Shown in pieces: positions 2,367-18,276 of a stretch of 64,000 nucleotides of DNA. Position 1 is the stretch's first letter. The number at the start of each line of letters is the position of its first letter. The notes beneath the pieces are model-generated. The model did no database searches. It saw nothing but the letters and a program-made list of their open reading frames with translations, and was not told the origin of the DNA. The DNA comes from Rhodothermales bacterium. Lineage in GTDB: Bacteria > Bacteroidota > Rhodothermia > Rhodothermales > Bin80. The stretch spans positions 152,819-216,818 of the forward strand of contig OX638318.1 of NCBI GenBank assembly GCA_951812585.1, given 5' to 3'. Position numbers and translations under genes: made by a program.

Positions 2367-2525
2367 AGGATGGTTATAACTGATGGTATATCGTCCGGGC
2401 TAGGAGGGTGCCCGTGGCCTGCCTCACAAGTGACAAAACCTTCAATTCCGGGCTTTTGCAAGAGACTTTTTTTTACAATTGGAGTATGCTACAAGCAATT
2501 GCATCTTCTAATGGATGGATTTGAC

Positions 2526-5500
2526 ATGCGTATCCTGATCGTGTTGCTACTGCCTGTGGTTCTGGCTGTGCCCTTGGCTGGAGCGCAGGGCGATCCCGAG
2601 TATGCGTCTCATGTGGTCGTGGTACAGTTTGCGCCGGAGGTGGCCATGGCCAACAGAGCCAGCACGACCGGGCTGCGCGACTTTGACCAGAGGGCGTCGC
2701 AGTACGGCGTCCACCTGATTGCGCGCGTGTATCCGTTTCTGGATCATGTGGAGCCCACGCCGAAGACCAGGCAGAACCTGATGGCGCTCCGCCGCACGTA
2801 TTATGTGCGCTATCAGGCGAATGTGGCTCCGAAGGCGGTGGCCAGTAATCTGGCCACGGCGCCAGGCGTGGTGTATGCCGAGCCGGTGCTCGTGAATCGT
2901 ACGCAGGCGTATTGGGAGCGTGTGCACCCCAATGATCCCATGTACAGTCAGCAGACGGAGCTACGTCAATTGCGCTTGCCGGAGGCGTGGGATGAGGTCA
3001 AGAGCGAAGGCGGCGCACCGCGGGTCGTCATAGCCATCGTGGACGGTGGCGGCGAATGGCGGCATGAGGATCTTCGCGCCAACGTTTGGACGAATCCGGG
3101 TGAGGTTGCCGACAACGGTGTCGATGACGACGGCAACGGGTTCATCGACGATGTGCACGGTGTCAACTTCGCCAACGGCGACGACACGGACAACGATCCG
3201 ACGGGGCTGCCGGAGACGCCCTCGAATGCCCAACATGGCACGGCCGTTGCAGGTTCGGCCAGCGCGGTGACCGACAACAGCGTGGGAGTAGCCGGTGCGG
3301 CCTGGAACGCGGATCTGATGCACATCAATGCTGGGTGCGAGCAGCGTGATTCAGGTATCTGCTATGGCTACGAGGGCATTCTCTATGCGGCGGCCAATGG
3401 GGCGGATATCATCAATGCGAGCTGGGGAGGCCTGGCAGGACACGATGATTATATCAGGCTTCCGGACCAAACGCTGAATCTGGCCACGGACATGGGAGCC
3501 CTTGTGGTAGCCGCCGCCGGTAATTTTGCGCGCAGCAACGATCTGTTCCGATACTATCCGGCCCGTAGTCCGCGCGTGCTGTCGGTGGGTGCAACGGAGA
3601 AGGACACGCGCAGACGGGCGGGTTTCTCGAATTACGGAAAGCTGGTAAACGTTTTTGCTCCGGGCGAGGGCATCGTGACCACCGGATCAGACAACGGCTA
3701 TATATCTGCCAGCGGGACGTCGTTTTCGTCGCCGTTGACGGCAGGCGTGGCGGCATTGGTGAAGACCCGGTTTCCCAACATGGGACCGGACGCGCTGCGG
3801 GAGCACATTAGGCTTACGAGCGACAATATGGATGCGGAGAATCCGGGCCTGGCCGGACGGCTCGGGCGGGGGTTTGTAAACGCGCTGGCGGCCCTCGGCG
3901 TGCCGGCTGTACCCGCCGTACGCCTCAAGCGCTGGAGTTGGGTGGACGACGACGGTGACCGCCAGATTGCTTCGGGCGATGTGGTAACGGTAACGGCAAC
4001 GGTAGTCAATTACCTGGCCGATGCCCGTCAACTCCGTGTGGGGCTTGTGGGGGCCGAACCGTATTCGTTCATAGACTTGACCGCTGCGTCGGTCAATATT
4101 GGAAGCCTGGCCGGTGGCGACTCGGTCGAGGTCCGGCTGGAGTTTACGGTGGCTTCGGACGCGCCTGCCAACCAGCGAGTGCGTTTCTTCACGCACATCC
4201 GTGAAGGGGCACACGAGGACGAGGCGGACCAGCTTTCGTTTCGGGTCAACCGGTCGCTGGAGCCGGTCCATCAAAGCTTGAGTGCATTATACGTGGCCAC
4301 CGGCGGGGACGAATGGACGCGCAATGACCATTGGGACATCACGACGGTTCCGAATGAGGAGGCGCTGGCCTTGTGGTTTGGTGTTTTCCTCAATCAGGGA
4401 TGGCTGTATCAGCTGGCATTGCCTAATAACAATCTTACGGGGTCGCTTCCGCCCGAACTCGGCAATCTCTCGGAACTGCAGGTGCTATGGCTGTCCGACA
4501 ATTCGTTGACGGGGCCGCTTCCACCCGAGATAGGCAATCTTTCGCAATTGCAAGGGCTGTATCTGTACAAAAATTCGCTGACGGGGTCGATCCCTTCCGA
4601 ACTCGGCAAGCTCTCGGAATTGCAAGAGCTGCAGCTGTTCGGCAATTCGCTGACGGGACCGCTTCCGGCCGAGATAGGCAATCTTTCGCAATTGCAAGTG
4701 CTGTGGATGGACGGCAATTCTCTGACGGGGCCGCTTCCGCCCGAGATAGGCAATCTTTCGCAATTGCAAGTGCTGTATCTGTACAAAAATTCGCTGACGG
4801 GGCCGATCCCGTCCGAAATCGGCAATCTTTCGGAATTGCGAAGGTTATCTCTGCACAGCAATTCGTTGACAGGGCCGCTTCCGCCCGAACTCGGCAATCT
4901 TTCGCAATTGCAAGTGCTGTATCTGGACGGGAATAGGCTGGCAGGGTCGATCCCGGCCGAAATCAGCAACCTCTCGGCTTTGAAAGAGCTGTATCTGTAC
5001 AACAATTCGCTAACGGGGTCGATCCCGCCCGAAATCGGCAACCTCTCGGCTTTGAAAGAGCTGTTTCTGTCCCGCAATTCGCTGACGGGGTCGATCCCGG
5101 CCGAACTCGGCAACCTCTCGGCTTTGCAAGCGCTGGATCTGTCCAGCAATTTGCTAACGGGGCCGCTTCCGCCCGAACTCGGCAATCTTTCGGAATTGCA
5201 AGTGCTGGATCTGCGCGGCAATTCGCTGACGGGGCCACTTCCAGCCGGAATCGGCAATCTTTCGGAATTGCAGTGGTCATATCTGAATAACACTTCGCTG
5301 ACGGGGCCGCTTCCGCCCGAAATCGGCAATCTCTCGGCTTTGCAAACGCTGTATCTGCACGACAATTCGCTGACGGGGCCGATCCCACCCGAAATCGGCA
5401 ACCTCTCGGAATTGGGCATTCTGTATCTGTACAATAATTCACTAACGGGGCCGCTTCCGCCCGAACTCGGCAATCTTTCGCAATTGAGATGGTTATCTCT

Positions 5501-6518
5501 GCACAACAATTCGCTGACAGGTGTGCTGCCGCGGAGTCTCATGCAGCTGGACAGTCTAAGCCATTTCTACTTTTACGGCCAGGAACTGTGCGCACCGGCG
5601 GACAATGACTTCCAAGCGTGGCTGAGCAGCATCCCGAATACAGACGGGCCCACCTGTGCATTCTTGCATCTTACAGGTACAATTGCAAATCAAACCTTTC
5701 CCAGAGCACAACCCATTGCACCGCTGGTCTTGCCTGAAGCCTCGGGAGGTGTGTCGCCGATCAATTACACGCTGGCCCCCACACCGCCGACAGGCCTAAG
5801 CTTTGACTCGGCAACGCGCACGATCAGCGGTACGCCGACGGAAGTCACGCAAGGTCCCTTGCCCTACACATACACGGCGACCGACGCGAACGGATCTGCC
5901 GACAGTTTGCACTTCACTATTGAGGTGTTTTTACCTTTGCATCTTACAGGTACAATTGCAAATCAAACCTTTCCCAGAGCACAGGCCATTGCGCCGCTGG
6001 TCTTGCCTGAAGCCTCGGGAGGCGTGTCGCCGATCAATTACACGCTGGCCCACACACTGCCGACAGGCCTAAGCTTTGACTCGGCAACACGCACGATCAG
6101 CGGTACGCCGACGGAAGTCACGCAAGCTCCCTTACCCTACACATACACGGCGACCGACGCGATCGGGTCCGCCGACAGTTTGCACTTCACCATTGAGGTG
6201 TTTTCACCAGTGGCCGCTGAGCACGAAACATTGCCGGAGTCGTTTGCCGTGCATGGCAATTACCCGAATCCCTTCCGTGCATGGACCCGCATCGTGTTCG
6301 ATCTGCCTTGGCCGGCGCGCGTGACCGTTGAAGTCATGGACTTAACGGGCCGGCGCGTGCTTGCTATAGCGCCGGTGGATCTGGCCGCTGGATGGGCGCA
6401 TAACATTGCAATAAGCGGCCTTACCCTTTCTTCAGGACTCTACCTGTATCGCCTGATGGCCGTGTCGCCCGAGAGCCACGCAACGTATCGGATGGGTCGC
6501 TTCGTGCACATTCGCTAA
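2526..6518 (+). CDS. Secreted S8 subtilase with 16 leucine-rich repeats, two Ig-like repeats and a T9SS C-terminal domain
   Basis: The ATG at 2526 opens a signal peptide (MRILIVLLLPVVLAVPLAGA); the frame is open further upstream but lacks signal-peptide character. The protein has 1330 residues. The peptidase S8 triad is complete: Asp173 in AIVDGGGEW, His237 in NAQHGTAVAG and Ser399 in SGTSFSSPLTAG. A linker domain follows, then 16 24-residue plant-type LRRs of the form NSLTGPLPPELGNLS (about residues 630-1012), two 91-residue putative Ig (He_PIG-like) repeats (about 1047-1228), and a Por-secretion-type tail starting at NYPNPFRAWTRIVFDLP. It is expected to be exported by Sec and then by the type IX system, and anchored or released outside the cell. 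The LRR array suggests protein or glycan binding; the substrate is unknown. Confidence 0.9.
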   Translation: MRILIVLLLPVVLAVPLAGAQGDPEYASHVVVVQFAPEVAMANRASTTGLRDFDQRASQYGVHLIARVYPFLDHVEPTPKTRQNLMALRRTYYVRYQANVAPKAVASNLATAPGVVYAEPVLVNRTQAYWERVHPNDPMYSQQTELRQLRLPEAWDEVKSEGGAPRVVIAIVDGGGEWRHEDLRANVWTNPGEVADNGVDDDGNGFIDDVHGVNFANGDDTDNDPTGLPETPSNAQHGTAVAGSASAVTDNSVGVAGAAWNADLMHINAGCEQRDSGICYGYEGILYAAANGADIINASWGGLAGHDDYIRLPDQTLNLATDMGALVVAAAGNFARSNDLFRYYPARSPRVLSVGATEKDTRRRAGFSNYGKLVNVFAPGEGIVTTGSDNGYISASGTSFSSPLTAGVAALVKTRFPNMGPDALREHIRLTSDNMDAENPGLAGRLGRGFVNALAALGVPAVPAVRLKRWSWVDDDGDRQIASGDVVTVTATVVNYLADARQLRVGLVGAEPYSFIDLTAASVNIGSLAGGDSVEVRLEFTVASDAPANQRVRFFTHIREGAHEDEADQLSFRVNRSLEPVHQSLSALYVATGGDEWTRNDHWDITTVPNEEALALWFGVFLNQGWLYQLALPNNNLTGSLPPELGNLSELQVLWLSDNSLTGPLPPEIGNLSQLQGLYLYKNSLTGSIPSELGKLSELQELQLFGNSLTGPLPAEIGNLSQLQVLWMDGNSLTGPLPPEIGNLSQLQVLYLYKNSLTGPIPSEIGNLSELRRLSLHSNSLTGPLPPELGNLSQLQVLYLDGNRLAGSIPAEISNLSALKELYLYNNSLTGSIPPEIGNLSALKELFLSRNSLTGSIPAELGNLSALQALDLSSNLLTGPLPPELGNLSELQVLDLRGNSLTGPLPAGIGNLSELQWSYLNNTSLTGPLPPEIGNLSALQTLYLHDNSLTGPIPPEIGNLSELGILYLYNNSLTGPLPPELGNLSQLRWLSLHNNSLTGVLPRSLMQLDSLSHFYFYGQELCAPADNDFQAWLSSIPNTDGPTCAFLHLTGTIANQTFPRAQPIAPLVLPEASGGVSPINYTLAPTPPTGLSFDSATRTISGTPTEVTQGPLPYTYTATDANGSADSLHFTIEVFLPLHLTGTIANQTFPRAQAIAPLVLPEASGGVSPINYTLAHTLPTGLSFDSATRTISGTPTEVTQAPLPYTYTATDAIGSADSLHFTIEVFSPVAAEHETLPESFAVHGNYPNPFRAWTRIVFDLPWPARVTVEVMDLTGRRVLAIAPVDLAAGWAHNIAISGLTLSSGLYLYRLMAVSPESHATYRMGRFVHIR
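4430..5560 (+). repeat. 72-base tandem repeats encoding 16 plant-type LRRs
   Basis: Near-identical 72-base units each encode a 24-residue repeat of the form LxxLxLxxNSLTGxLPxELGNLS. They vary mostly at the predicted surface positions and in ELGNLSQLQ versus EIGNLSALK. DNA-level similarity is high between several units, which points to recent expansion or gene-conversion-like shuffling. The last unit (LPRSLMQLDSLSHFYF) is a divergent cap. Confidence 0.9.
5664..6209 (+). repeat. Tandem 273-base duplication encoding two Ig-like domains
   Basis: Units 5664-5936 and 5937-6209 are nearly identical in DNA, differing at scattered positions. Each encodes a 91-residue domain from LHLTGTIANQTFPRA to LHFTIEVF. 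The in-frame period of exactly 91 codons and the high identity indicate a recent duplication inside the protease gene. Confidence 0.9.
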
Positions 6519-6738
6519 AGGAGACATCCACGGCCCGCTGTAATCACGAATCCCCATGGCCGGCCGTAATCTGGATCGATACGGCATTTGTCGGCCATGG
6601 CCCACCTTCATTCGACCGGTCAGAATGGGTGAAACGACATCTGAAATGTACCGACGGGCGTAGGTGGTCCCTAGCCCCCTTGCCGAGTAATCAAAAACAG
6701 GACTTAACATTAGCACGTTTGCCGGTTAAGTTGCCGGC
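6519..6738. other. Intergenic stretch leading into the DruA-like remnant
   Basis: No gene is seen. Positions 6607-6622 (TTCATTCGACCGGTCA) recur in inverted orientation at 24109-24124. The last 60 bases before 6739 (from about 6676) are also conserved upstream of the second DruA-like copy at 17940-18005, so they are likely the native 5-prime flank of that element's gene. Confidence 0.5.
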
Positions 6739-7230
6739 ATGGCGGGGCAGTATCAGATACGGACGACGCTTCGGGCATCGGTGCCAGCGTTGTCCGCGAT
6801 CCTGGACGCGCATCAGGACAAGAGCCGGAACGCGGTCGGCCGGATCGTGTGCGCGGCGTTTGTAAGCTGCGCACCGTCGCACACAGCAGGGCAGCTGTGT
6901 GAAGGTGCTGCGGGTTTTGGAGGCGGAAGGCCACATCACACTGCCCGCGCCGCAGTGCGCACTGCAGATCACCGGTCCGCGACTGCTGGAGCGTCCGGTA
7001 GCAGCGCCGGTTGCTATGCCCGACACGGTGGGGCAGTTAAGGGACTGGCGATTGCTCTGGTCATCAGCCGGCAGGATCGTGCGATATGGAGTACGCTGAT
7101 GGACCGGGAGCATCCGCGTGGGGTGACGACCTTTGCGGGGGCGCAGCGGCGCTATTTGATCAGTAGTAGACACGGCATCCTGGCCGCCGTTGGATTCTCG
7201 GCGCGGCGTGGTATCTCAAGCCCGGGACCT
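6739..7230 (+). pseudogene. DruA-like (DUF4338) gene remnant, copy A
   Basis: The reading starts MAGQYQIRTTLRASVPAL and SRNAVGRIVCAAF. It shifts frame to KVLRVLEAEGHITLPAPQ and returns to the first frame with LMDREHPRGVTTFAGAQRRY and SRHGILAAVGFSA. This is the order of DUF4338 proteins, the family that includes DruA of Druantia anti-phage systems and proteins carried by some transposon-like elements. The compensating frameshifts and the missing C-terminal part show decay. The 210-codon open frame over this region mixes real and out-of-frame sequence and should not be taken as a protein. Copies B and C lie near 17.7 and 25.1 kb. The family assignment is from memory of the motif order. Confidence 0.7.
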
Positions 7231-7232
7231 GC

Positions 7233-8261
7233 TTACGTGAATACATCCGTGACGCGGTTGAAAAACGAGCGAATCTTGGACCTTGCGCTCGGACGGAAAG
7301 AGGGCGACTTGCGCAGGCGTGCAAGCGTATGCCGATCCTCTTTGGTGAGGGTGCGCGGCGTCCATACATGAACAGTAACCAGGAGATCCCCGCGACGGCC
7401 GGAGTTGATGTCCTGGATGCCCTTGCCTGCGATCCGCAGCAAATGGCCCGACTGCGTTCCAGGCTTGATGTTCAGTGGCGCAGTCCCGTCCAGCGTAGGT
7501 ACCGCGACTGCAACGCCCAGTGCAGCGTCGGGAAAGGAAATGTACAGATCGTGAAACAGATCGGTGCCCCTGCGCTCAAAGTCATCGCTGGGAATCTCCT
7601 TGATCACCACCCGCAGATCTCCGGGCGGCCCGCCGCGCTTGCCGGCGTTGCCTTCCCCGCGCAGCGATAGGTACTGCCCCTCCGAAACACCCGCCGGGAC
7701 CCGAACCGAAACCGTCTTTTCGGCATCCACGCGGCCCTCGCCCCAGCACTCGCCGCACTTGTCCTCGATCACCTGCCCCTCGCCATGACAAGCGCGACAA
7801 GGACGCACGTTGACAATCTGGCCCAGCATCGTTTGCCGGGCCTGCCGCTGCTCGCCATAACCATCGCAGGTGCCGCACATACGCAAAGCCTTTCGACCTC
7901 CCTTGGCACCCGTGCCCTCGCAGGCCTCGCAGACAATGAATCGGCGCAACTTGACCTTCTTGCCCGCAATCCCCTGGGCGACTTCTGCAAGCGTGAGCCT
8001 GAGCGTTATTCTGAGATTTTCGCCGGGTTGCCCGATCGACGCGCGGCGACGCGGACCTGAGCCACCCCCAAAAAACTCGCTCCAAGGACTCCCACCCCCC
8101 GCAGACTGGGAAAAGATGTCGCTGAACGCACTGAAGATGTCCTGTACGTTGCTGAAAGGCGAACCGGTGGCTCCGTTGCCGCCCGTGCGCGTTTGCCGTA
8201 GCCGAACGGTTGCCAATTCTTGCCTCCTTCGTGCCACGACCAGTGTTTCCTTCGTGCGCAC
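7233..8261 (-). pseudogene. dnaJ: dnaJ, N-terminally truncated (J domain absent)
   Basis: From about residue 27 the 342-residue frame is a good DnaJ: a Gly/Phe-like linker, four intact zinc-binding CxxCxGxG motifs (CEACEGTG 111-118, CGTCDGYG 129-136, CRACHGEG 155-162, CGECWGEG 169-176), both C-terminal substrate-binding domains, and a natural end (FFNRVTDVFT). The roughly 70-residue J domain with its HPD motif, needed to stimulate DnaK, is absent. The first 26 residues are unrelated, and no HPD motif occurs in any frame just upstream. A broken DruA-like copy abuts the 3-prime end. I read it as a truncated extra dnaJ, possibly a pseudogene. The well-kept remainder leaves open a J-less product that binds substrate without recruiting DnaK. 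Confidence 0.75.
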
Positions 8262-8441: not shown

Positions 8442-9116
8442 ATGGTCAGACCGATTCATGGCCTCTTGCTGCTACTGGTGGTGCCGGCGCATGCCTGGGC
8501 ACAATCATTCGATCAGGTGACGCGCCCGGTGGCCACCCTCGTGCGTCCGGCACAGATCGACTCGTTTCTCAACGCGCTTCTCATTCCGCCACCAGACACC
8601 GTCAGCACGGTGGACATCGTAGACCTGACCGGCAACGGATACGGGCCTGACGACATGGTCATCCTGTACCCATCCCAGGCAATCTATCCCCTGGGTGCCG
8701 ATGTCCCGCGCACGCTGCAGGACATCATGAAAACATGGGAACTGGCAGCCGACTATCGCCTGGATGCCACGCTGGAAGAAAGCTACACCCTGGAAGTCGA
8801 AGCGCACCGCCAACAGGATCCGCGCTCCGCCATCAGCGGGTCGGTCATCCGCGCGATCGCAAACTACTACGATGGCGCGGACATGGACCTCAGGCTCTCG
8901 CGCGGCGAGGACGGACTGCGTCTGGAAATGTGGAACTACGACCCTGATGCGCTCCAGTACCGGCCCCAAACGGCGGCGGCATGCGGGCCCGCGGCAACGC
9001 AGTGGTTCGCGTTCGCCAAGCCGCGTTTTGTGCTGGCCTTCAGTGAACCGGGCACCTGCATGGAGGTGCGGCAGGATGGCAACCGCGTAATCACCAGGCT
9101 CTGCGACAACGACTAA
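8442..9116 (+). CDS. Secreted protein of unknown function, first gene of the pilus-like cluster
   Basis: A 224-residue protein from the ATG at 8442; an ATG at 8421 would add seven residues. The signal peptide is MVRPIHGLLLLLVVPAHAWA with likely cleavage before QSF. The mature part has VDIVDLTGNGYGPDDMVILY and two Cys residues near the C-terminus. I recognise no family. It lies 11 bases upstream of the first pilin-like gene on the same strand, so it is probably co-transcribed and acts in the periplasm or at the surface with that cluster. A tip adhesin or accessory subunit is possible, but that is a guess from position. Confidence 0.75.
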   Translation: MVRPIHGLLLLLVVPAHAWAQSFDQVTRPVATLVRPAQIDSFLNALLIPPPDTVSTVDIVDLTGNGYGPDDMVILYPSQAIYPLGADVPRTLQDIMKTWELAADYRLDATLEESYTLEVEAHRQQDPRSAISGSVIRAIANYYDGADMDLRLSRGEDGLRLEMWNYDPDALQYRPQTAAACGPAATQWFAFAKPRFVLAFSEPGTCMEVRQDGNRVITRLCDND

Positions 9117-9127
9117 ACCCCTACCCG

Positions 9128-9676
9128 ATGCCGATGAAAGCCCTCGCTTCTCTCTTTGCCTGCCTGCTCGCCGCGGGCACTGCACTGGCACAGTCCACCA
9201 CCGTAGATGCCGAAGTCGTGCTGACTACGCCCGGCGCGACCTGCACCTTCACCGTCGCCAATGACCTGGACTTCGGAAGCGTCGAAAAGCCCTCCACCGG
9301 CTCCGGATCAGTGACCATTAGCGCCACATCCGGAGCACGCAGCTCTTCGGGTGCAGTCGTGTCAGGATCCAGCACCGTCGGGCAGGTGCGCCTGCTGGGA
9401 CAACATGTGAGCAGCTATACGGTGTCGAGAACCTACCCCAGTGCGCTCACCAACAGCACGGAGCCTTTGACCTTCGCCGGCACATGGGCCGAATCTACCA
9501 CCTCCAACAGCGGCTACACATCCATCAGCACCAGCACCTATACCGGCACAGCTGGCGGCGCGGGGACAACCTTTTTACACTACTTCCGCTTTGGCGGCAC
9601 GGTCAGTGGCATCACCTGGTCCGATGGCAACGGCACCTACACCGGCTCCATCTCCACCAGCGCTACCTGCAGCTGA
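9128..9676 (+). CDS. DUF4402-like pilin candidate 1
   Basis: A 182-residue protein with a clear signal peptide (MKALASLFACLLAAGTALAQ). The mature domain is Ser/Thr/Gly-rich and beta-rich: NDLDFGSVEKP near the start, a repeated-strand middle, and NGTYTGSISTSATCS at the end. The early DFG motif, a Gly-x-Tyr near the C-terminus and the size fit DUF4402-type fimbrial subunits secreted through chaperone-usher systems. There are two Cys residues, one early and one last, that could pair. The stop codon overlaps the next start (TGATG, 9674-9678). Calling it a pilin is an inference from fold-like features and from the neighbouring chaperone and usher genes. Confidence 0.7.
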   Translation: MPMKALASLFACLLAAGTALAQSTTVDAEVVLTTPGATCTFTVANDLDFGSVEKPSTGSGSVTISATSGARSSSGAVVSGSSTVGQVRLLGQHVSSYTVSRTYPSALTNSTEPLTFAGTWAESTTSNSGYTSISTSTYTGTAGGAGTTFLHYFRFGGTVSGITWSDGNGTYTGSISTSATCS

Positions 9677-10188
9677 TGCGGCTCACGTTAGCATTGGCTG
9701 CAGGACTTTTTGCGACGCCGACCGGCGCGCAGTCTTCAGCCCACTTAGGCATTCAGCTGGAAGTGCTGCCCGCAGCGGTGCGGATCACCGTCACATCGGC
9801 AGCAGTCGACTTCGGACAGCAGCATGCGAACGCCGGCATCGTCGTGCTGGACCCCGCCACCGGAGAAATCTCCCGGAAAGCCGCGGGCCGACACCAGGTC
9901 GGACAGGTCCAGGTCGCCGGACGGGCCGGCACTGCGTACGCCATCACCGTGACACCGTCCGGCGCGCTCGAGAGCAGCCACGGACGCATTGACTTCGGAC
10001 TGCGATGGGCCCAGAGTTTCAGCTGCGCAAGCGGCGCCTTCGAGGCCATTGCAAACCCTGGTGCTGTGACCGGCCATTTGGGACCGGAGGGATGCAGCGC
10101 TTTGCGCTTCGGCGGTCAGATCGCACTCAACGACGCACCCGAAGGCCGCTACGAAGGCAGCCTTGAGGTGCGCATCCTTTCTTTATGA
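9676..10188 (+). CDS. DUF4402-like pilin candidate 2
   Basis: A 170-residue protein. The true start is the ATG at 9676, overlapping the previous stop codon; longer upstream frames are shadows. The signal peptide is MRLTLALAAGLFATPTGAQ. The mature part has AAVDFGQQHANAG, then VGQVQVAGRAGTAYAITVTP and a C-terminal APEGRYEGSLEVRILSL, the same DFG and Gly-x-Tyr-x-Gly layout as its neighbour. Two Cys residues are available for a disulphide. It ends overlapping the chaperone start (ATGA). It is probably a second structural or minor subunit of the same surface fibre. Confidence 0.7.
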   Translation: MRLTLALAAGLFATPTGAQSSAHLGIQLEVLPAAVRITVTSAAVDFGQQHANAGIVVLDPATGEISRKAAGRHQVGQVQVAGRAGTAYAITVTPSGALESSHGRIDFGLRWAQSFSCASGAFEAIANPGAVTGHLGPEGCSALRFGGQIALNDAPEGRYEGSLEVRILSL

Positions 10189-10958
10189 GATACCTCCTCG
10201 CCGCCGCGGCGTTCTTGTGGAGCAGCCTGCCCTCTCACGCGCAGGCGACGCTCAGCGTGACGCCGGCATACGCCTACGTATCGGCGACGGCCCCGTACGG
10301 CGCTTTTCAGCTGCGCAACGAAGGCACGCAGCCGCTGGAGATTATTGTGACCGCACAATACGGCGTCATCGCGTCGAACAAGTCCGAAACCAACATTCAT
10401 TTAGGCAGCGCAGGCCTGCTCGGCGACCTCACGGATCGGCTGACATTCTTTCCTGAGCGCCTGATCATTGATCCGGGGCAGGAGCGCGTCGTGCGCTACC
10501 TCGTGGAAGGTGCGGAGGCACTACCCGATGGCGGGCATATCGCGCTCATGCACTTCCGACTGCAGGAACGCGCCGCGGTCAGCGACACAGCGGTCCCTGC
10601 CATCGCCACGGCCATCAGCATCGAATACAACCTGGTGGCCCCAATGGTGGTGATCAGCGGGCAAGGCGCGCCGAAGCTGCGCGCCGAAGTCCTGAGCGTC
10701 CGTGACGATGCACTGTCGCTCCTACTGCATAACGAGTCACCATTCCCGTTTGTGGGCGGCATCACGCTGGCGCGCAAGGGCGCACAGCTGACCCGCACCG
10801 TCACGGCCATCTATACGCAAAGACGCATAGACCTTGCGCTGCGCGCGCCGCTTATGCCTGGCTCCTATGTGCTCCACTTCGACCACCGCTATCCTGGACT
10901 TTCGCGCGCGATGCAGCACGCCCTGCAGCGCCCCGAACCCCTTCATTTCCAGTACTGA
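10185..10958 (+). CDS. PapD-like periplasmic pilus chaperone
   Basis: A 257-residue secreted protein (signal peptide MRYLLAAAAFLWSSLPSHAQ). It has the two-domain plan of pilus chaperones: an N-terminal Ig-like domain with FQLRNEGTQPLEIIVTA, a strand with RLTFFPERLIIDPGQERVVR (the region of the chaperone G1/F1 strands), and a C-terminal domain ending in GSYVLHFDHRYPG. Chaperones of this class hold pilin subunits by donating a strand and pass them to the usher. It overlaps pilin 2 by four bases and is followed eight bases later by the usher-like gene. Conservation is weak, so the call depends on both sequence pattern and context. Confidence 0.72.
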   Translation: MRYLLAAAAFLWSSLPSHAQATLSVTPAYAYVSATAPYGAFQLRNEGTQPLEIIVTAQYGVIASNKSETNIHLGSAGLLGDLTDRLTFFPERLIIDPGQERVVRYLVEGAEALPDGGHIALMHFRLQERAAVSDTAVPAIATAISIEYNLVAPMVVISGQGAPKLRAEVLSVRDDALSLLLHNESPFPFVGGITLARKGAQLTRTVTAIYTQRRIDLALRAPLMPGSYVLHFDHRYPGLSRAMQHALQRPEPLHFQY

Positions 10959-10966
10959 ACTAATCT

Positions 10967-13288
10967 ATGGCTCGCACCTTCGCGCTGGTGCTGGCGCTGC
11001 ATCCGGTATGGTGTCGCGCGCAGGCGCCGTCCGGGCATGGCACCGTATTTCTGGAGGTGCCGCTGATGGTGCAAGCACCGGGCTTTCAGTCTGTGGTGCG
11101 CGCCTACCATGATGGCGACCACTTCTTTGTGGATGCTGCGCGCCTAATGGAGCAGCTCGGATACAGCGTCACGCGCGCCGATGCGCAGCTCACCGCCGCT
11201 GACGCCAGGCACCACCTAGTGATGGACTTTGCAGAAATGTATATCCAGCGCCCCGGTGCACCACCGGTGTCGATGAGTGGCCACGCCGTATACAGCCAGG
11301 GCCGCTACCTCCTAGACGTATCCGCTTTGTCCCGGCTGTTCGGGGCCGATGTCTTTTTTGACGAGGCCCGCTTGAGTCTGACGCTGTCCACGGCTGCGGA
11401 GCACTTTGACACCTACGCCCTGGGGCGCCGGGCCTTCCTGGACAGCGAAGTGCCTGGTCCGGTGCAGTTTGGTCGCCAGCGCCACTTCCTGGGTGGCATA
11501 ACCGCTTCCTGGCACGCCACGCAGCAGTGGCATCACGGAAGGCCTGTCTATCGCGATGGCGTGGTGCACTTTACTGCGAGCGCACTGGGCGGCGCGGTGC
11601 GTGGCCTGGCAGGCCGCACCGCCGAGGCAACCTACCTGTTTGACCGACCCCGCAGAACGCATCTCACCCGCGTGGAAGTGGGCCGCATGACGCTGCACGA
11701 CGGGGTGCCCGTCCGTGCGCTTCGACTTTCCAATGTCCCGTTGGCTGCACTGCATGTGCAGCGCTCCGCTACGCTCCGGGGAGAGGCTCCGCCACACGCC
11801 ATGGTGGAGGTCACAGCGGCCGGGCAGATTGTGGATCGCGTCCAGGTGGGTCCGGACGGCCAATATCGACTCCGCGTTCCTGCCTACTACGGCACCACCG
11901 AAGCCCTGGTGCGCGTGCAGCCGATGGGCGGCGCTGCGCCGTACGAAACGCAACGCTACCTAGTGACGACGCCCGCCCTGGTGCCGCCGGGCCGGCTCTA
12001 TTACGATGCCATGTTCGGTACCCGACATGCACTTCGCATCCGCTATGGCGCGGGCCCGCGTCTGACTGTGCAAGCCCATGGAATCTATGGCGGTAAGTTC
12101 CACTTCGGCGCGTCCGCAAGCCCGTGGCCGTTTATGGTACTGAGCGCCGATGTGGCCTTTTGGCCGCTGGCGCTGGTGCAAGCAAGCGCGCACCTCTGGC
12201 GACGCCATCTGCGCGCTGAGGCCGCCTTCTCAGCTTCAGATGGGCAATCCCATGGCCACCTGGTCGTTTATGGACAGCGACATCGGATGGGTGCGCAGCT
12301 TACCGGCCATTTGACGCAGGGGGGAGCCGGAACCGCGTTTCGGCTTGCGCCGTCGGTGGCCTACCATGGGACCGAAGGCTTGGCCGTGCGCCTGCAGCTG
12401 GAAACTGCGAACGATCACGGGTTGCACGCGGTACGCTGGCATGCTGCGGCGACGAAGACACAGCCGCTCCTGGGCGGCGCGTTGCAGATCGGGCTTTTCC
12501 TTCGCGGCATGCAGGGAGTGCAAAACGGCGGCGTCGATGCGCTCTTCAGCCTGCGCCATGGAGCTGTGGGGGCCGTCTTATTCTATGATCCGTCGCTGCG
12601 GCGCGCCCAGGGCAAGGTTGCCGTCCAGGTACGTACGCGCGCCTTGGGCGTGGCTTCGCATGCAACCAGCACAGGCACGCATACCCACAGCGCCTACGGA
12701 AGCGTCAGCATCGGGCCCGGGCTTCGCTTCACGAGCACACTGAGCGACGAAACAGCCGCCCTCCTCCGCATCTTTGAAGACATGGATGGCGATGGCGTGC
12801 TGGACAGCGGCGAGCCGCTACTTTCAGGCGTCGATGTGCAACTCTTTCATGCGCCCTTGAAGCGAACGGCCAGCGGCCTGCTTCGGGCCTCTTACCTGGA
12901 GCCGTACACCACGTACCAGGTGAGAATCCTAGAGCAATCCATCCGCGATCCGTGGCTGCGGCCAGCCACCGGCTATTCCTTCAGCTTCATCGCTGATCCC
13001 GGCCGCACCAAGGTGCTGGACATCCCGCTGCAAAGTGCCCCGCTGGTGCGGGGCCGGGTCAGTGGATTCGAACGTGCTGCGTCTCGCCTGCGTGTGCACG
13101 CGATGCGTGATGGCGTGGCGGTGGACAGCGCGGAGGTGTTTCGCGATGGCGGTTTCGCCTTGCGCCTGGAGCGGGGACCCTACCGCTTGCGGCTGCAGGA
13201 TGTGGTGGACGGCTCACTGCTGAAAGTGCAGACCCTGCATGTGCCTGACGGTGCGCGCATCGTGGATGTGACAATCACCAGCCAATAG
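10967..13288 (+). CDS. Usher-like outer-membrane protein
   Basis: A 773-residue protein with a signal sequence (about residues 1-19). An N-terminal domain (residues about 25-140) is followed by a small strand-rich domain with SNVPLAALHVQRSATLRGEA and YRLRVPAYYGTTEALVRVQP. This resembles the plug/middle region of ushers, which have a typical amplification of beta-domain repeats. A long beta-barrel-like section (about 340-590) follows, and the C-terminal domain carries a calcium-binding-like loop DMDGDGVLDSGE at about 604-615. Ushers form the pore through which pilins are threaded. It is somewhat short against classical ushers (about 800-880 residues). The 229 bases between this gene and exbB hold no convincing gene. 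Confidence 0.7.
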   Translation: MARTFALVLALHPVWCRAQAPSGHGTVFLEVPLMVQAPGFQSVVRAYHDGDHFFVDAARLMEQLGYSVTRADAQLTAADARHHLVMDFAEMYIQRPGAPPVSMSGHAVYSQGRYLLDVSALSRLFGADVFFDEARLSLTLSTAAEHFDTYALGRRAFLDSEVPGPVQFGRQRHFLGGITASWHATQQWHHGRPVYRDGVVHFTASALGGAVRGLAGRTAEATYLFDRPRRTHLTRVEVGRMTLHDGVPVRALRLSNVPLAALHVQRSATLRGEAPPHAMVEVTAAGQIVDRVQVGPDGQYRLRVPAYYGTTEALVRVQPMGGAAPYETQRYLVTTPALVPPGRLYYDAMFGTRHALRIRYGAGPRLTVQAHGIYGGKFHFGASASPWPFMVLSADVAFWPLALVQASAHLWRRHLRAEAAFSASDGQSHGHLVVYGQRHRMGAQLTGHLTQGGAGTAFRLAPSVAYHGTEGLAVRLQLETANDHGLHAVRWHAAATKTQPLLGGALQIGLFLRGMQGVQNGGVDALFSLRHGAVGAVLFYDPSLRRAQGKVAVQVRTRALGVASHATSTGTHTHSAYGSVSIGPGLRFTSTLSDETAALLRIFEDMDGDGVLDSGEPLLSGVDVQLFHAPLKRTASGLLRASYLEPYTTYQVRILEQSIRDPWLRPATGYSFSFIADPGRTKVLDIPLQSAPLVRGRVSGFERAASRLRVHAMRDGVAVDSAEVFRDGGFALRLERGPYRLRLQDVVDGSLLKVQTLHVPDGARIVDVTITSQ

Positions 13289-13517
13289 CCTATGCGCCTA
13301 CTTTCAGAACCTTGGATGATTGCCCATTGCTGCGAGCGCTGCCCCCAGCATGTCAGGCCTCGATGCATCCAAAGGGCGTTGACTGTGCCACACCGATTTG
13401 CATTTGCGCTGCCCATCACGCATCGCATGCAGGTGATCTGCAGTACCTGGAAATGCAAGGGAAGCACAGAGCGGCGCGGCCATCAGGGACAATCGGACGA
13501 ACCAACACTGTAATCTC

Positions 13518-14189
13518 ATGCTGATCACTATGCAGGCCGCTGCGGATACGACGCAGCTTTCGGCAATTCAGTCTGACTCGCTGCACGACCTTTTTGCGCA
13601 GGCAGGCGGCTTTGAATGGCCGATTTTGGGAGTGCTTCTGGCGGGACTTTTGACGTTGGCGCTGGCGGCAGTTCGCCTGCTGGCGGACCACTACGCAGCG
13701 CGCAAGATGCGTGCGCTGCGCGTTGGCGCAGCACATGCTACGGAGCTTGAAGCCGCGGCGCTTGCAAGCGACGACAGCCTGTATCGCCGTCTCCTAGAAG
13801 CCATGCTTCAGGTCTGGCGGAGCACGCCCCAGGCGCTTGGCAACGAGTCAAGCACCGTACTGGCGGCCGCCCGGGCGGCCTTGGGACGCACCCAGCGTCT
13901 GGTGGGATTCTATTCGAGCACCGCCGGCGGCCTAGGCCTGTTGGGCACGCTGGTCGGCATCTACGCACTCTTTTCGGCGCAAACCCGCGACGCGCAGACC
14001 ATCTTTGCGGGGATTGCCATCGCGATTGTTTCGACGCTTCTGGGCATTGTGGTTTCGATCATCCTGGAGCTTCTGGAAGCGCTGCTGCACCACTGGGCCA
14101 GCCGCTACATGGAGCGAGCAGAGGAATGGGCCGCTGCCGTACGGTATCGACTGTTGTCGCTCACCGGACAAGATTCCGATGCACCATGA
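13518..14189 (+). CDS. exbB: ExbB/TolQ/MotA-family proton channel
   Basis: A 223-residue protein with three membrane helices: about 32-55 (WPILGVLLAGLLTLALAAV), about 134-155 (GGLGLLGTLVGIYALFSA) and about 160-190 (IFAGIAIAIVSTLLGIVV). The paired GLLGT and IVSTLLGI segments are the hallmark of the MotA/TolQ/ExbB family, which forms the channel that converts proton flow into mechanical force. A second ATG lies at 13530. It overlaps the next gene by four bases (ATGA). The setting next to a chaperone-usher-like set and upstream of two ExbD genes suggests a dedicated motor for a cell-envelope machine rather than ordinary siderophore uptake. Confidence 0.85.
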   Translation: MLITMQAAADTTQLSAIQSDSLHDLFAQAGGFEWPILGVLLAGLLTLALAAVRLLADHYAARKMRALRVGAAHATELEAAALASDDSLYRRLLEAMLQVWRSTPQALGNESSTVLAAARAALGRTQRLVGFYSSTAGGLGLLGTLVGIYALFSAQTRDAQTIFAGIAIAIVSTLLGIVVSIILELLEALLHHWASRYMERAEEWAAAVRYRLLSLTGQDSDAP

Positions 14190-14557
14190 AGCATACACTC
14201 ATCGTGCGTTTGGTCGACATCACGCTGCTCTTGCTGCTCAGCCTGATGGCCATAGCCAGCATAGACCCCTACGCGGTGACCCTGCCCTACAGCGAGGTGC
14301 TGGAGGATACAGGTTCGCTGCACCAGCCGCTCCAGGTGGCAATCAGCGCCCAGGGCGAAATCCAGGCCTACGACGACACCGGCAACCTTATCGCGCTGTC
14401 CCCGGCGGCACTTGCCATCCGCGCAGCGGGCCAGGTCGTCGAGGTGGCCGTAGACCAAAAGGCCCCCGCACGGCGGCTTCTAGAACTGCACCGCGCCTTG
14501 GATGCACACGACGTTGCTGCCGCCTTCCTGGTTGCGCGCGCTCCTTCCGCGCCCTGA
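14186..14557 (+). CDS. exbD: ExbD/TolR-family protein 1
   Basis: A 123-residue protein from the ATG at 14186. Cytoplasmic N-terminus, then one membrane helix RLVDITLLLLLSLMAIASI in which Asp11 sits at the position of the proton-carrying Asp of ExbD/TolR. The periplasmic domain follows (LPYSEVLEDTGSLHQPLQVA, then a helix-strand segment with ARRLLELHRALDAHD). The start overlaps the exbB stop. ExbD dimers form the rotor-like or stator-like core inside the ExbB pentamer. It ends with a Pro/Ala tail. Confidence 0.8.
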   Translation: MKHTLIVRLVDITLLLLLSLMAIASIDPYAVTLPYSEVLEDTGSLHQPLQVAISAQGEIQAYDDTGNLIALSPAALAIRAAGQVVEVAVDQKAPARRLLELHRALDAHDVAAAFLVARAPSAP

Positions 14558-14585
14558 CGCTCCAAGCCTACACCCTGCCCAATCC

Positions 14586-14951
14586 ATGCACGCTTCATAC
14601 CGACTGCTGATCCGATTCATTGACCTCGGCCTCCTTCTCTTGATGGCGTTTTTGGCCACGGCCGCGCTCAGGCCTGCGATCCAGGTGCCGTTACCACGGG
14701 GCGCAGGCGAGTCGGCGCTGGCCTATCGCATCGCTTTTGACGCTGCCGGTGCGACAGTACGACGCGAGCCATCGGACACGAATCTATGCCAGATCACTGC
14801 ACTGGACGACCTTGTGCCGTGCCTGCGCACACTGCGTGCGGCACCGGCGCCGGTGCTGCTCACGCCGCTGAGTGGAGCCAGCACACAGCGCCTGGTGCGC
14901 ATCCTGGACCTTTGCCAGCAGGCGCACTTGATATGCGCATTGTCTTATTGA
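14586..14951 (+). CDS. exbD: ExbD/TolR-family protein 2
   Basis: A 121-residue protein from the ATG at 14586. The N-terminal helix RFIDLGLLLLMAFLATAAL again has an Asp (Asp13) at the conserved ExbD position, and is followed by IQVPLPRGAG and a periplasmic domain with a Cys pair (CQITALDDLVPC). It is divergent from its neighbour, so the two may form a heterodimer. Two ExbD-type genes after one ExbB gene also occur in some gliding and Tol-like systems. It ends five bases before the next gene. Confidence 0.75.
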   Translation: MHASYRLLIRFIDLGLLLLMAFLATAALRPAIQVPLPRGAGESALAYRIAFDAAGATVRREPSDTNLCQITALDDLVPCLRTLRAAPAPVLLTPLSGASTQRLVRILDLCQQAHLICALSY

Positions 14952-14955
14952 AGCC

Positions 14956-15882
14956 ATGAAACGCAGGACCTACGAGCGCGTCCTGGCAGCGGCGCTTACC
15001 GCCCTGCTGGTGCTCTTTCTGTTTGTGCTGGCCGGCACCTACCAAGTGCGCCAGGCCCATCCTGAATACGTAGCGCTGATGTTTGCGCGCGGTGCCTCAG
15101 GGCCCGCGATGCCAATGGCCGCACCGACTGCTTCGGCTGCGCCCCGCCGCATGGGTATCGATGCCATGCGAATTCCAAGCACCCAGCGTACGGTGACTGC
15201 ACTCAAGCGACCGTTACGCGAAATGGGTTCAAAAACTGCCACTTTGGCGCTGCAGCGCACGGAGAGTCCCAAGGGCAGCGCGGAGCAGCCGCGCGCCTCA
15301 CGAAACCTTGTGCCGCGCACGCGGACTTCAATGCAGCGTGGTATCGTTCTGACCCCCGTGGTAACGGCGCCGAACGAGAAGCTGCGGACTGCGTTGCCAC
15401 TCAGGACGCCCAAGCCTCATGCACCGATGCCACAAATGCCTGCACCGGCGGTCCAGTCACGGGCGGCAAAGACTTCTGCCGCGCCCGATGCTCCGCGCAC
15501 CGACGCGATCATGGACTGGATGCGGCTTCAGCCATCGACACTTCCCATCGGCATAAGGCACCACATCGAATACAGAGAGGGCAGCCTGACCTCGGCGGCA
15601 CTGCTGGAACATGAGGGCGCCTCGTATGAGCTGTATCTGATGGCGCACCTGTCGCTGCGCGAGGTGCACATCGTCCTGGTCAGGGACGAGAATTCGTACT
15701 ACCTGATTGATCGAAGCTTTCAACGGGAGGGACTCAAGTTTCGCGTGGGAGCCGTTCGCCGCAATGGTGGCGTAATCACGGGCATTGTATCCGAGGAGCG
15801 TGCGGCCTCAAGTCCCGAGGCACGTCACTACTACAACGTGTTTCTGCAGTGGTGGGACCGTGAACGATATAAACTGCAATAG
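14956..15882 (+). CDS. Single-pass periplasm-spanning protein in TonB position
   Basis: A 308-residue protein. An N-terminal membrane anchor (VLAAALTALLVLFLFVLAG, about residues 8-27) is followed by about 150 residues of low-complexity Pro/Ala/Arg/Thr-rich sequence, and then a compact C-terminal domain from about residue 180 with YELYLMAHLSLREVHIVLV and HYYNVFLQWWDRERYK. The plan (anchor, extended linker, small periplasmic domain) and its place after exbB-exbD-exbD are those of a TonB/TolA-type force transducer. The C-terminal domain lacks the usual TonB signature. I infer that it carries motor force to an outer-membrane partner, possibly the usher-like protein or the TPR lipoprotein. Confidence 0.7.
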   Translation: MKRRTYERVLAAALTALLVLFLFVLAGTYQVRQAHPEYVALMFARGASGPAMPMAAPTASAAPRRMGIDAMRIPSTQRTVTALKRPLREMGSKTATLALQRTESPKGSAEQPRASRNLVPRTRTSMQRGIVLTPVVTAPNEKLRTALPLRTPKPHAPMPQMPAPAVQSRAAKTSAAPDAPRTDAIMDWMRLQPSTLPIGIRHHIEYREGSLTSAALLEHEGASYELYLMAHLSLREVHIVLVRDENSYYLIDRSFQREGLKFRVGAVRRNGGVITGIVSEERAASSPEARHYYNVFLQWWDRERYKLQ

Positions 15883-15884
15883 CG

Positions 15885-17345
15885 ATGCACAAAGCTGCCT
15901 ATGGCCTCCTGGCCGCGGTCTTCTTATGTGGTGCGGGCTGCCAGCGCCCGCAGCCCTTGATTTTGGTGCCGGTACCGACACCGGACTCTGCGCCTGAGCC
16001 GCCGCCCGTCTGGGCCGGTGTAGACAACGCCGTGGCGGTGACTGCTGATTCGCTAGCCTCCAAGGCGCTTGTCAGCCGACAAGCCCTAGAGACGAGCCGC
16101 GCGGAGGCCGCCGCGGCGATGGTGCTCGCGCGCCTGGCAGACAGCCTCCTGGGCACGGAGGTGTTCGCTGCGTTGCCCGCCGATGAAGTCAGCATCAGTC
16201 AGATGAGCGTCGCTACGCAGTCCTACAACCGGGGTGCGCGGGCACTTACGAATTATGCCGAGGAACCCGACAGCATGCGTGCTGCGCGCCTTTTGAGCGA
16301 AGCTTCAGAGAGTTTCAAGGCCGCCCTTCAGGCGAATCCGGCCGATGAAGATGCACACTACTGGCTCGCCAGGGTGTACGAGTTGCAGGCCGACGCACTG
16401 AATGAGGCGAGTGCTGTAGAAGCCCGCATTGCGGTCCTCGCTAGCCTCGTCGCGCTGATGGGCCATCGTGGAGCATACATCGCACTATTGGCTGACGCGC
16501 ATGAGCGGCGCGGCACGCCTGCAGCGGGGCTGGCTGCCGGAGCGCTTTGGCAGCGCGCCGCCCAGGTCATTATTGACGAGGCTGTGCTCGATCCTGAGGG
16601 TGTGGTCGTTGTGGATTCTGCACGCGTGTTTACGCATTACGCACGCGGCAGCCGCGCTTTTGTGCAGGCGATGCGCAGTGAGCTGGCACTGGATGCGCTC
16701 ACTGCTGCCGCGCACTGGGCTGCGCAACCGGATGATCGCGCCTATGTGGAAGCGGAGCGCCAGTGGATCCTCTGGGACGGGGGCAACCTTGTGACGCGCA
16801 CGCGCTTTGATACGCTCTTGAACACCACGGATGCTGCGGCTGCAGCAGCGGGAATGGAGGCGCTGCTTTCAGTTGTATCGCGTCCCGGTGCAAGTCTGGA
16901 GGTTCGACATGAGCTGGCGCTGCGCTGGTACCGTCTCGGTCAGGAGGAAAGAGCCATTGAGAGCCTTCAGTCCCTGGCACTGGAATCAGGTGATGCAGAC
17001 AACAGTCGCCGGGCACAGATTCGCGAGGATTACGGTGTCATGGCCTTCAACATCGGAATGCAGCGCCATGCGCAAGGCGAATTGCACGCCGCTCTTGGCT
17101 ACCTGCTGCAGAGCGAGGCGACGGAGTTCAGCCAGTCTGCACGGGCTTCGTTTGCGGCGTCGCGCCTGTTGTCCAACGACATTTCAGCGTCGCTGGACGC
17201 AGCTTTGCGCGCCGAGGCCCACATAGATCAGCTGGATCTGGCCGAGCGCAAGAACCTGTATCGTCACCTGATAGAATTGCATCGGCGGAGCGGCGACCGC
17301 ACGCGTGCGGCGGCCTATGTGGCAAAGTATCGGAGTTTGCGCTAG
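15885..17345 (+). CDS. TPR-repeat lipoprotein
   Basis: A 486-residue protein beginning two bases after the previous stop. The N-terminus MHKAAYGLLAAVFLCGAGC gives a lipoprotein signal with Cys19 as the likely lipidated residue; the lipobox is imperfect but acceptable. A Pro-rich spacer follows, then helix pairs with TPR-like pattern (DEDAHYWLARVYELQADAL, ALRWYRLGQEERAIESLQSL, and RKNLYRHLIELHRRSGD near the end). It is likely outer-membrane anchored and facing the periplasm, acting as a scaffold for the motor or pilus complex. It is the last gene of the block; a hairpin lies 35 bases downstream. Confidence 0.8.
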   Translation: MHKAAYGLLAAVFLCGAGCQRPQPLILVPVPTPDSAPEPPPVWAGVDNAVAVTADSLASKALVSRQALETSRAEAAAAMVLARLADSLLGTEVFAALPADEVSISQMSVATQSYNRGARALTNYAEEPDSMRAARLLSEASESFKAALQANPADEDAHYWLARVYELQADALNEASAVEARIAVLASLVALMGHRGAYIALLADAHERRGTPAAGLAAGALWQRAAQVIIDEAVLDPEGVVVVDSARVFTHYARGSRAFVQAMRSELALDALTAAAHWAAQPDDRAYVEAERQWILWDGGNLVTRTRFDTLLNTTDAAAAAAGMEALLSVVSRPGASLEVRHELALRWYRLGQEERAIESLQSLALESGDADNSRRAQIREDYGVMAFNIGMQRHAQGELHAALGYLLQSEATEFSQSARASFAASRLLSNDISASLDAALRAEAHIDQLDLAERKNLYRHLIELHRRSGDRTRAAAYVAKYRSLR

Positions 17346-17469: not shown

Positions 17470-17939
17470 CTCACTGTTTCTGCCTGCCTCACGCTTTGCG
17501 CTACCAGGGATCCAAGCCATCCATAAGTCCCGGGGATTGAGATACCACGCCGCCGAGAGTCCGACGGCGGCCAGGATGCCGTGTCTACTATTGATCAAAT
17601 AGCGCAGCTGCGCCCCCGCAAAGATCGTCACCGCGCGCGGATGCTCCCGGTCCATCAGCGTATTCCATATCGCACGATCTTGCCGGCTGGTGACCAGAAC
17701 GATCGCCAGCCCCTCAACCGCCCCCACCGTGTCGGGCACAGCAACCGGCGCTGCTACCGAGCTTTCCAGCAGCCGCGGACCGGTGATCTGCAGTGTGCAC
17801 TGCGGCGCGGGCAGTGTGATGTGGCCTTCCGCCTCCAAAACCCGCAGCGCCTTCACAAAGCTGCCCTGCTGCGCGCGCATCTTACAAACGCCGGCACCGA
17901 TGCCCGAAGCGTCGTCCGTACCTGATGCTGCCCCGCCAT
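17470..17939 (-). pseudogene. DruA-like (DUF4338) gene remnant, copy B
   Basis: Reading leftward from the ATG at 17937-17939 (MAGQHQVRTTLRASVPA). Part of the region that reads SRNAVGRIV in copy A has been lost. Then comes one open frame with KALRVLEAEGHITLPAPQ, AVEGLAIVLVTSRQDRAIWN, LMDREHPRAVTIFAGAQLRY and AAWYLNPRDLWMAWIP. This is the best-kept core of the three copies and shows the DUF4338/DruA signature (an IW..LMDREHP segment and GAQLRYL). The C-terminal half is missing. Sixty conserved bases upstream of the ATG are shared with copy A. It is dead or truncated. Confidence 0.7.
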
Positions 17940-18276
17940 GCCGATAACTTAACCGGCAAACATGCTAATGTTACGTTCTGTTTTTGGTTACTCGGCAAGG
18001 CTAGGGCGTACGCTGTATGGATTCCTAATTGTTGCTTGCCCGAAAAATGCCTGATTGGTCCTGCAGACCAGCAGTTGTGGGCGCATAGGGGGCGGATATA
18101 CGGGTGCAAGCGGCGAAAGATTGGGCATTTGGGGGTGTGGAGCGGCTGCTTTCGGGGCCGTTCCCCCCAACGGCGGCCTACGTTGTTTTAGCGAATGCTG
18201 CACCGTTTTCTGATCCTGGGCTTGTTATTGGTGGGATTCGTACGCTTCTGCCCTGACCTTCGCCCGTTGTACTGCT

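Follow-up and report, generated by a model that had tools for sequence, protein, structure and literature searches.

We examined a stretch of 64,000 nucleotides (nt) of a Rhodothermales bacterium (contig OX638318.1, positions 152,819 to 216,818; hereafter the window), in which positions 8442-17345 hold a locus resembling a chaperone-usher fibre system joined to the genes of a putative proton-driven motor. Ten plus-strand open reading frames (ORFs) are all present here and closely packed, as an earlier note on this DNA had described them, with intergenic distances of -4 to 28 nt throughout, apart from the 229 nt that separate the usher gene from exbB. The starts of the second pilin (9676) and the second ExbD (14586) were refined. 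The features are as follows.

8442..9116, plus strand: sec, a secreted protein of 224 amino acids (aa), a member of the motor module seen in usher-type and PorP-type loci
9128..9676, plus strand: pilin 1, with a DUF4402 domain (PF14352, E 6.4e-8) and a signal peptide
9676..10188, plus strand: pilin 2, with a DUF4402 domain (PF14352, E 3e-5), homologous to the chaperone-fused domain of paralogous loci
10185..10958, plus strand: predicted PapD-like periplasmic chaperone, from the fold of a homologous fused domain and homology to PF00345-matching proteobacterial chaperones
10967..13288, plus strand: predicted usher of 773 aa with an N-terminal Cu_amine_oxidN1-like domain (about 29-140), a beta-barrel, an inserted plug-like immunoglobulin (Ig) domain and C-terminal Ig-like domains (AlphaFold2, Foldseek, VIA)
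13289..13517, no strand: gap of 229 nt between usher and exbB
13518..14189, plus strand: ExbB/TolQ/MotA-type proton-channel subunit (PF01618, E 1e-12, 48.3 bits, cut-off 22.9)
14186..14557, plus strand: ExbD/TolR subunit 1, with membrane Asp11 (PF02472, E 1e-5, 26.1 bits, above cut-off)
14586..14951, plus strand: ExbD/TolR subunit 2, with membrane Asp13 and four invariant Cys (weak PF02472 match, 16.7 bits, below cut-off)
14956..15882, plus strand: force-transducer-like linker, with an N-terminal membrane anchor, a low-complexity linker and a conserved C-terminal domain of ~130 aa (from alignments)
15885..17345, plus strand: tetratricopeptide repeat (TPR) lipoprotein, with a lipobox-like GAGC and weak TPR matches (Pfam), conserved with the motor module

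The Pfam Usher family (PF00577) did not match the window protein, and it matched only 1 of 26 family members, at an E value of 0.13. However, we regard this miss as a limit of model coverage rather than a structural result. The AlphaFold2 model of the usher, built on an alignment of 26 sequences, reached a predicted local distance difference test score (pLDDT) of 79.8 and a predicted template modelling score (pTM) of 0.57. With this model, the top 18 rows from Foldseek were all FimD/PapC (best E 4.7e-23), and VIA-align gave Z scores of 20.0-23.7 to ushers, with a siderophore receptor as the next row at 17.3. The alignments to solved ushers span residues 164-773, covering the barrel, the plug and the C-terminal region. 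Residues from about 29 to 140, where an N-terminal chaperone-binding domain would be expected in an usher, lie outside them and bear a weak likeness to Cu_amine_oxidN1 in Pfam. By predicted fold, the window barrel protein is an usher of the FimD/PapC type. In a scan of named genomes, which was made with a narrower usher alignment than the full one, the close relatives were all metagenome-assembled genomes of Rhodothermales, Rhodothermaceae or Bacteroidota.

The window chaperone had no Pfam match either, and PF00345 remained unmatched across the family. We modelled a homologue in which a DUF4402 domain and the chaperone are fused (pLDDT 81.4; pTM 0.52, so that the model does not fix the domain arrangement). 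For residues 193-423 of this model, SfaE, Caf1M, FimC, PapD and other PapD-type chaperones headed the list with Z scores of 11.7-13.9, and through this homologous fused domain the chaperone is PapD-like by predicted fold. The earlier note had named an usher-like barrel and a PapD-like chaperone, and both agree with the modelled folds; its reservation that the putative usher might be an unrelated barrel did not hold up. Distant usher relatives in Proteobacteria adjoin chaperones recognised by the same chaperone profile, two of which exceed the PapD_N (PF00345) cut-off, and one of these ushers scores above the Cu_amine_oxidN1 cut-off as well; neither a motor gene nor a DUF4402 pilin was detected near these distant relatives. 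In the window, the two pilins scored 33.8 and 25.1 bits for DUF4402 against a Pfam cut-off of 25.2, and with this domain present, polymerisation by donor-strand exchange is putative. Searches of PDB sequences with phmmer and with profiles found no convincing relative of the usher, the chaperone, the linker or sec, and a Pfam scan assigned no family to sec.

The motor genes have retained the residues that matter for proton transport. T144 and T173 of ExbB are invariant in 33/33 sequences, as is the membrane D11 of ExbD1 (33/33), and D13 of ExbD2 is invariant in 31/31; from established knowledge of ExbB/TolQ and ExbD/TolR, we take these residues to line the proton path. With the key residues kept, ExbB and the two ExbDs likely form a powered motor. 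The profile search with ExbB reached only PomA, MotA and TolQ, at E 0.01 and weaker. Because the same genome encodes a separate, more canonical ExbB (C1:2965566), the window ExbB is extra and dedicated. A second ExbB relative, apparently frameshifted, lies at about 2131 kb of contig C1 in genome G000 (L257 8963-9633) beside a receptor-like ORF, where the other module genes are absent. ExbD2 also carries four cysteines that are invariant in 31/31 sequences, unlike ordinary ExbD. For the linker, neither TonB_C nor any other relevant Pfam family appeared in 14 sequences up to E 0.5. An anchored linker and a TPR lipoprotein would also suit an envelope tether or Tol-like maintenance system, tying the outer membrane or the usher to the wall at sites of surface structures without movement, and Tol-like systems are widespread (PMC12204202). 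However, a static tether would have no need of the conserved proton-carrying Asp of both ExbDs and the two Thr of ExbB, and the module was found attached to surface-structure loci of one kind or the other, as described below. We consider such a tether quite improbable.

To see how the fibre genes and the motor genes are related, we compared usher loci between the window's family (16 genomes) and a second family of the order (five genomes). The data consist of metagenome-assembled genomes, mostly fragmented assemblies, analysed by sequence comparison and predicted fold. Each of the 16 genomes from the window's family has usher, ExbB and TPR genes. The two families together yielded 36 full-length usher loci; in 34 of them exbB is the neighbour of the usher and shares its strand, that is, in 34 of the 35 testable loci, one running off the contig end. 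Within the window's family, group A has the gene order of the window, and group B comprises diverged paralogues with a scrambled order. Group B and the second family show the order sec-exbD2-linker-exbD1-TPR-(giant pilin/chaperone fusion)-usher-exbB or giant-sec-exbD2-linker-exbD1-TPR-usher-exbB, so that motor genes stand on both sides of the usher. In 27 loci, pairs that have diverged further in the usher also differ more in every motor gene (Mantel r 0.91-0.97, with 0/999 permutations as high), a correlation that partly reflects shared ancestry. In A/B paralogue pairs within one genome, the motor genes are as distant from each other as the ushers are, which shows that duplication or acquisition involved the entire unit at once.

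Could the two halves nevertheless be unrelated operons that are neighbours by chance? The 229-nt gap in the window speaks for this explanation, as do one usher locus lacking a motor and two motor loci lacking an usher. On the other hand, the halves are linked in every genome of the family and have diverged together, and the usher-exbB gap is only 1-22 nt in many loci of relatives. The interleaved order of the paralogues refutes chance neighbourhood in practice, and we find it scarcely credible. The earlier note had left room for separate operons on account of the gap, a suggestion countered by the interleaved paralogues and the short gaps in relatives, and had asked whether the halves occur together in relatives, which they do in all related genomes. 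Judged from these comparisons, the linkage is far beyond chance, holding in every family genome and in several arrangements, and the comparisons show joint inheritance of the usher, the pilin and chaperone genes and the six genes of the motor module. Within the 229-nt gap itself, neither a promoter-like nor a terminator-like site was detected. Several group A relatives carry a gene for a two-domain DUF4402-like protein between the usher and exbB; the window lacks this gene, and a search of its gap for a remnant of the two-domain pilin found none. In two orphan motor loci (L213 3489-4535 and L255 2182-3228), a relaxase-like gene, as read from its sequence, stands directly upstream of exbB in the place of the usher, which suggests replacement by a mobile element.

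The scrambled loci also differ in their fibre genes. Wherever the gene could be recovered from scrambled-order or second-family loci, it encodes the pilin-2 domain together with the chaperone as a single polypeptide, matching the pilin profile at E values of 1e-12 to 1e-21, except for one truncated case, and the chaperone profile at 1e-18 to 1e-32. The longer fusions, of up to 2260 aa, carry Ig-like or other repeats ahead of the pilin/chaperone part, and these fusion loci yielded no separate gene for a pilin. Since a chaperone fused to its own subunit cannot be recycled, the fusion would be a base that stays in the periplasm with its repeats outside. The base of the fibre may thus remain in the periplasm in the scrambled loci.

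The motor module is not restricted to usher loci. A profile search found full-length relatives of the linker in further families of the class; among 395 genomes drawn evenly from the phylum, the linker profile gave, outside the class, only a short match to the anchor region. In the other families, the gene order is a protein with FG-GAP, CARDB and CHU_C domains, a PorP/SprF-like barrel, exbB, exbD1, exbD2, linker, TPR and sec. The PorP-like gene, whose assignment to PorP/SprF rests on scores slightly under the Pfam cut-off, adjoins exbB in 14/14 loci testable by contig from five families. On this comparative evidence, exbB, exbD1, exbD2, linker, TPR and sec are a six-gene module with two alternative outer-membrane partners. 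We rejected the idea that the usher substitutes for a missing type IX secretion system (T9SS), as the T9SS translocon SprA is present in 234/244 genomes of the class, including all those of the window's family. Some PorP-type loci (L203, L204, L209 and L210) have an exbB of 538-571 codons. The one scanned, L203, encodes a C-terminal extension with invasin/Big_1-like Ig domains, which would be on the cytoplasmic side by the usual ExbB topology. Another genome that bears a PorP-type module (G052) also has a partial usher and a chaperone at a contig end (L212 3-2404).

The PorP/SprF-type loci bear on a further explanation, in which the motor powers export itself. The linker would pull the plug from the usher in a TonB-like manner or drive subunit release, making this a proton-motive force (PMF)-dependent usher. 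The modelled usher aligns with the barrel and plug of FimD/PapC, exbB is closely joined to the usher gene, and ExbBD-TonB acts upon the plugs of receptors (PMC12204202). Usher residues from about 29 to 140 lie outside the alignments to solved ushers, so recruitment may differ from that of known ushers. However, the same module occurs at PorP/SprF-type loci where the cargo has a CHU_C domain of the T9SS type and a T9SS is present, and the distant ushers of Proteobacteria lack a detectable motor gene nearby. Moreover, no outside energy is needed to form chaperone-usher pili, and removing the plug costs little energy (PMC3960871). We judge export powered by the motor to be unlikely, although less so than a static tether. 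Because the PorP/SprF-type loci share the motor module and export there is expected from another machine, the evidence favours a role after export, in which the motor moves or holds a surface structure, over one in which it energises subunit release.

We therefore lean towards reading the ten genes as one envelope-spanning machine, in which an outer-membrane barrel holds a surface fibre and the proton motor acts on that fibre. ExbB and the two ExbDs would form a proton-driven motor of the 5:2 type in the inner membrane, and force would pass across the cell wall through the anchored linker, reaching the TPR lipoprotein and the usher on its periplasmic face. Export of a fibre of DUF4402 or Ig-repeat proteins would rest with the usher and the PapD-like chaperone and run on folding energy, as usual, while the base subunit (pilin 2 with the chaperone, one polypeptide in many paralogues) would be kept on the periplasmic side. 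Working on this held base or on the usher, the motor could keep the fibre in place, retract it, rotate it or move it; which way the force acts and what it serves are matters of inference. Several observations weigh against this machine. No motor gene lies within 19 kb of one usher locus (G003:C41), and an usher is missing from two motor loci (G001:C9 and G003:C65). The pilin and the chaperone are separate in group A, to which the window belongs, and a permanently held base is suggested for the paralogues only. The gene content is compatible with motor action either before export, as in plug opening, or after it, and the whole case is comparative, built on metagenome-assembled genomes. A bolder proposal is a powered surface machine of a new kind. 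Its motor module would be interchangeable between two unrelated holders, namely an usher with a pilin-chaperone base and a PorP/SprF barrel with T9SS cargo, and the usher type would be the first chaperone-usher-type fibre to be actively retracted, rotated or dragged by the cell, a proposition that we find nearly as easy to accept as to doubt.

The cluster is flanked by a dispersed repeat with several copies in the genome, present in inverted orientation at 6678-7203 and 17551-18000 with arms that are 91-93% complementary. The whole cluster could be inverted by recombination between these homologous arms. The DNA from the repeat to the cluster holds a DnaJ-like ORF on the minus strand (7233-8261), apparently without a J domain in that reading frame. 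Just upstream, at 2370-6518, is a serine-protease-like protein with leucine-rich repeats, which ends in a stretch resembling a T9SS-type sorting domain, as read from the translation.

Chaperone-usher fibres are the classic example of a structure assembled with no outside source of energy, and a conserved family whose usher is passed on together with a dedicated proton motor would demonstrate that coupling of such fibres to the inner membrane is possible. The module shared between an usher and a holder of T9SS-type adhesins is a natural experiment on the role of a motor at the outer membrane: its common function should be to act on a held surface structure. The locus also hints at how uncultured bacteria of this group behave at their surface. 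An usher system with a dedicated motor was not found in the open-access literature that we searched, and ushers and pili go unmentioned in a recent survey of force transducers (PMC12204202).

Known systems share parts of this arrangement. Chaperone-usher pili (FimD/PapC with FimC/PapD), which form without external energy (PMC3960871), have in common with it the usher fold and the PapD-like chaperone, both predicted here, and short secreted pilin-like proteins in the operon. They differ in that the locus described here has no match to PF00577 or PF00345, carries a Cu_amine_oxidN1-like N-terminus and a dedicated proton motor, and has relatives with pilin-chaperone fusions bearing Ig repeats. ExbBD-TonB likewise consists of ExbB, ExbD and an anchored linker protein, whereas the module has two ExbDs, no match to the TonB C-terminal family, and an usher as its partner instead of a TonB-dependent receptor. 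The AglRQS-Glt/Nfs system of Myxococcus combines one ExbB/TolQ (AglR) with two ExbD/TolR (AglQ and AglS) and TPR proteins that reach outer-membrane partners (PMC3169522, PMC9389320). In contrast to the locus in the window, it has no usher, its motor and Glt genes lie in separate clusters, and GltG and GltJ have TonB-C-like motifs, which a Pfam scan did not find in our linker. The content of one ExbB, two ExbDs and TPR genes is nevertheless found in both, and the two may work alike, although we do not claim membership. In GldLM-SprF-SprB gliding and T9SS, a PorP/SprF barrel holds a surface adhesin on which a PMF motor acts, and our PorP-type relatives have matching kinds of partner genes; known binding partners are type B C-terminal domain proteins for PorP-like proteins and the gliding adhesin SprB for SprF (PMC9143113). 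The window type has an usher in place of PorP/SprF and no CHU_C cargo in its operon. Finally, SiiAB-SiiE-SiiCDF of Salmonella pathogenicity island 4 also dedicates a MotAB-like proton channel to an Ig-repeat surface adhesin, with SiiAB controlling the PMF-dependent retention of SiiE (PMC6272769), while it uses a type I exporter with an ATPase instead of an usher and chaperone, and SiiA-F include no second ExbD, linker or TPR lipoprotein. By analogy of function, SiiAB is the nearest precedent for the motor-linked usher described here.

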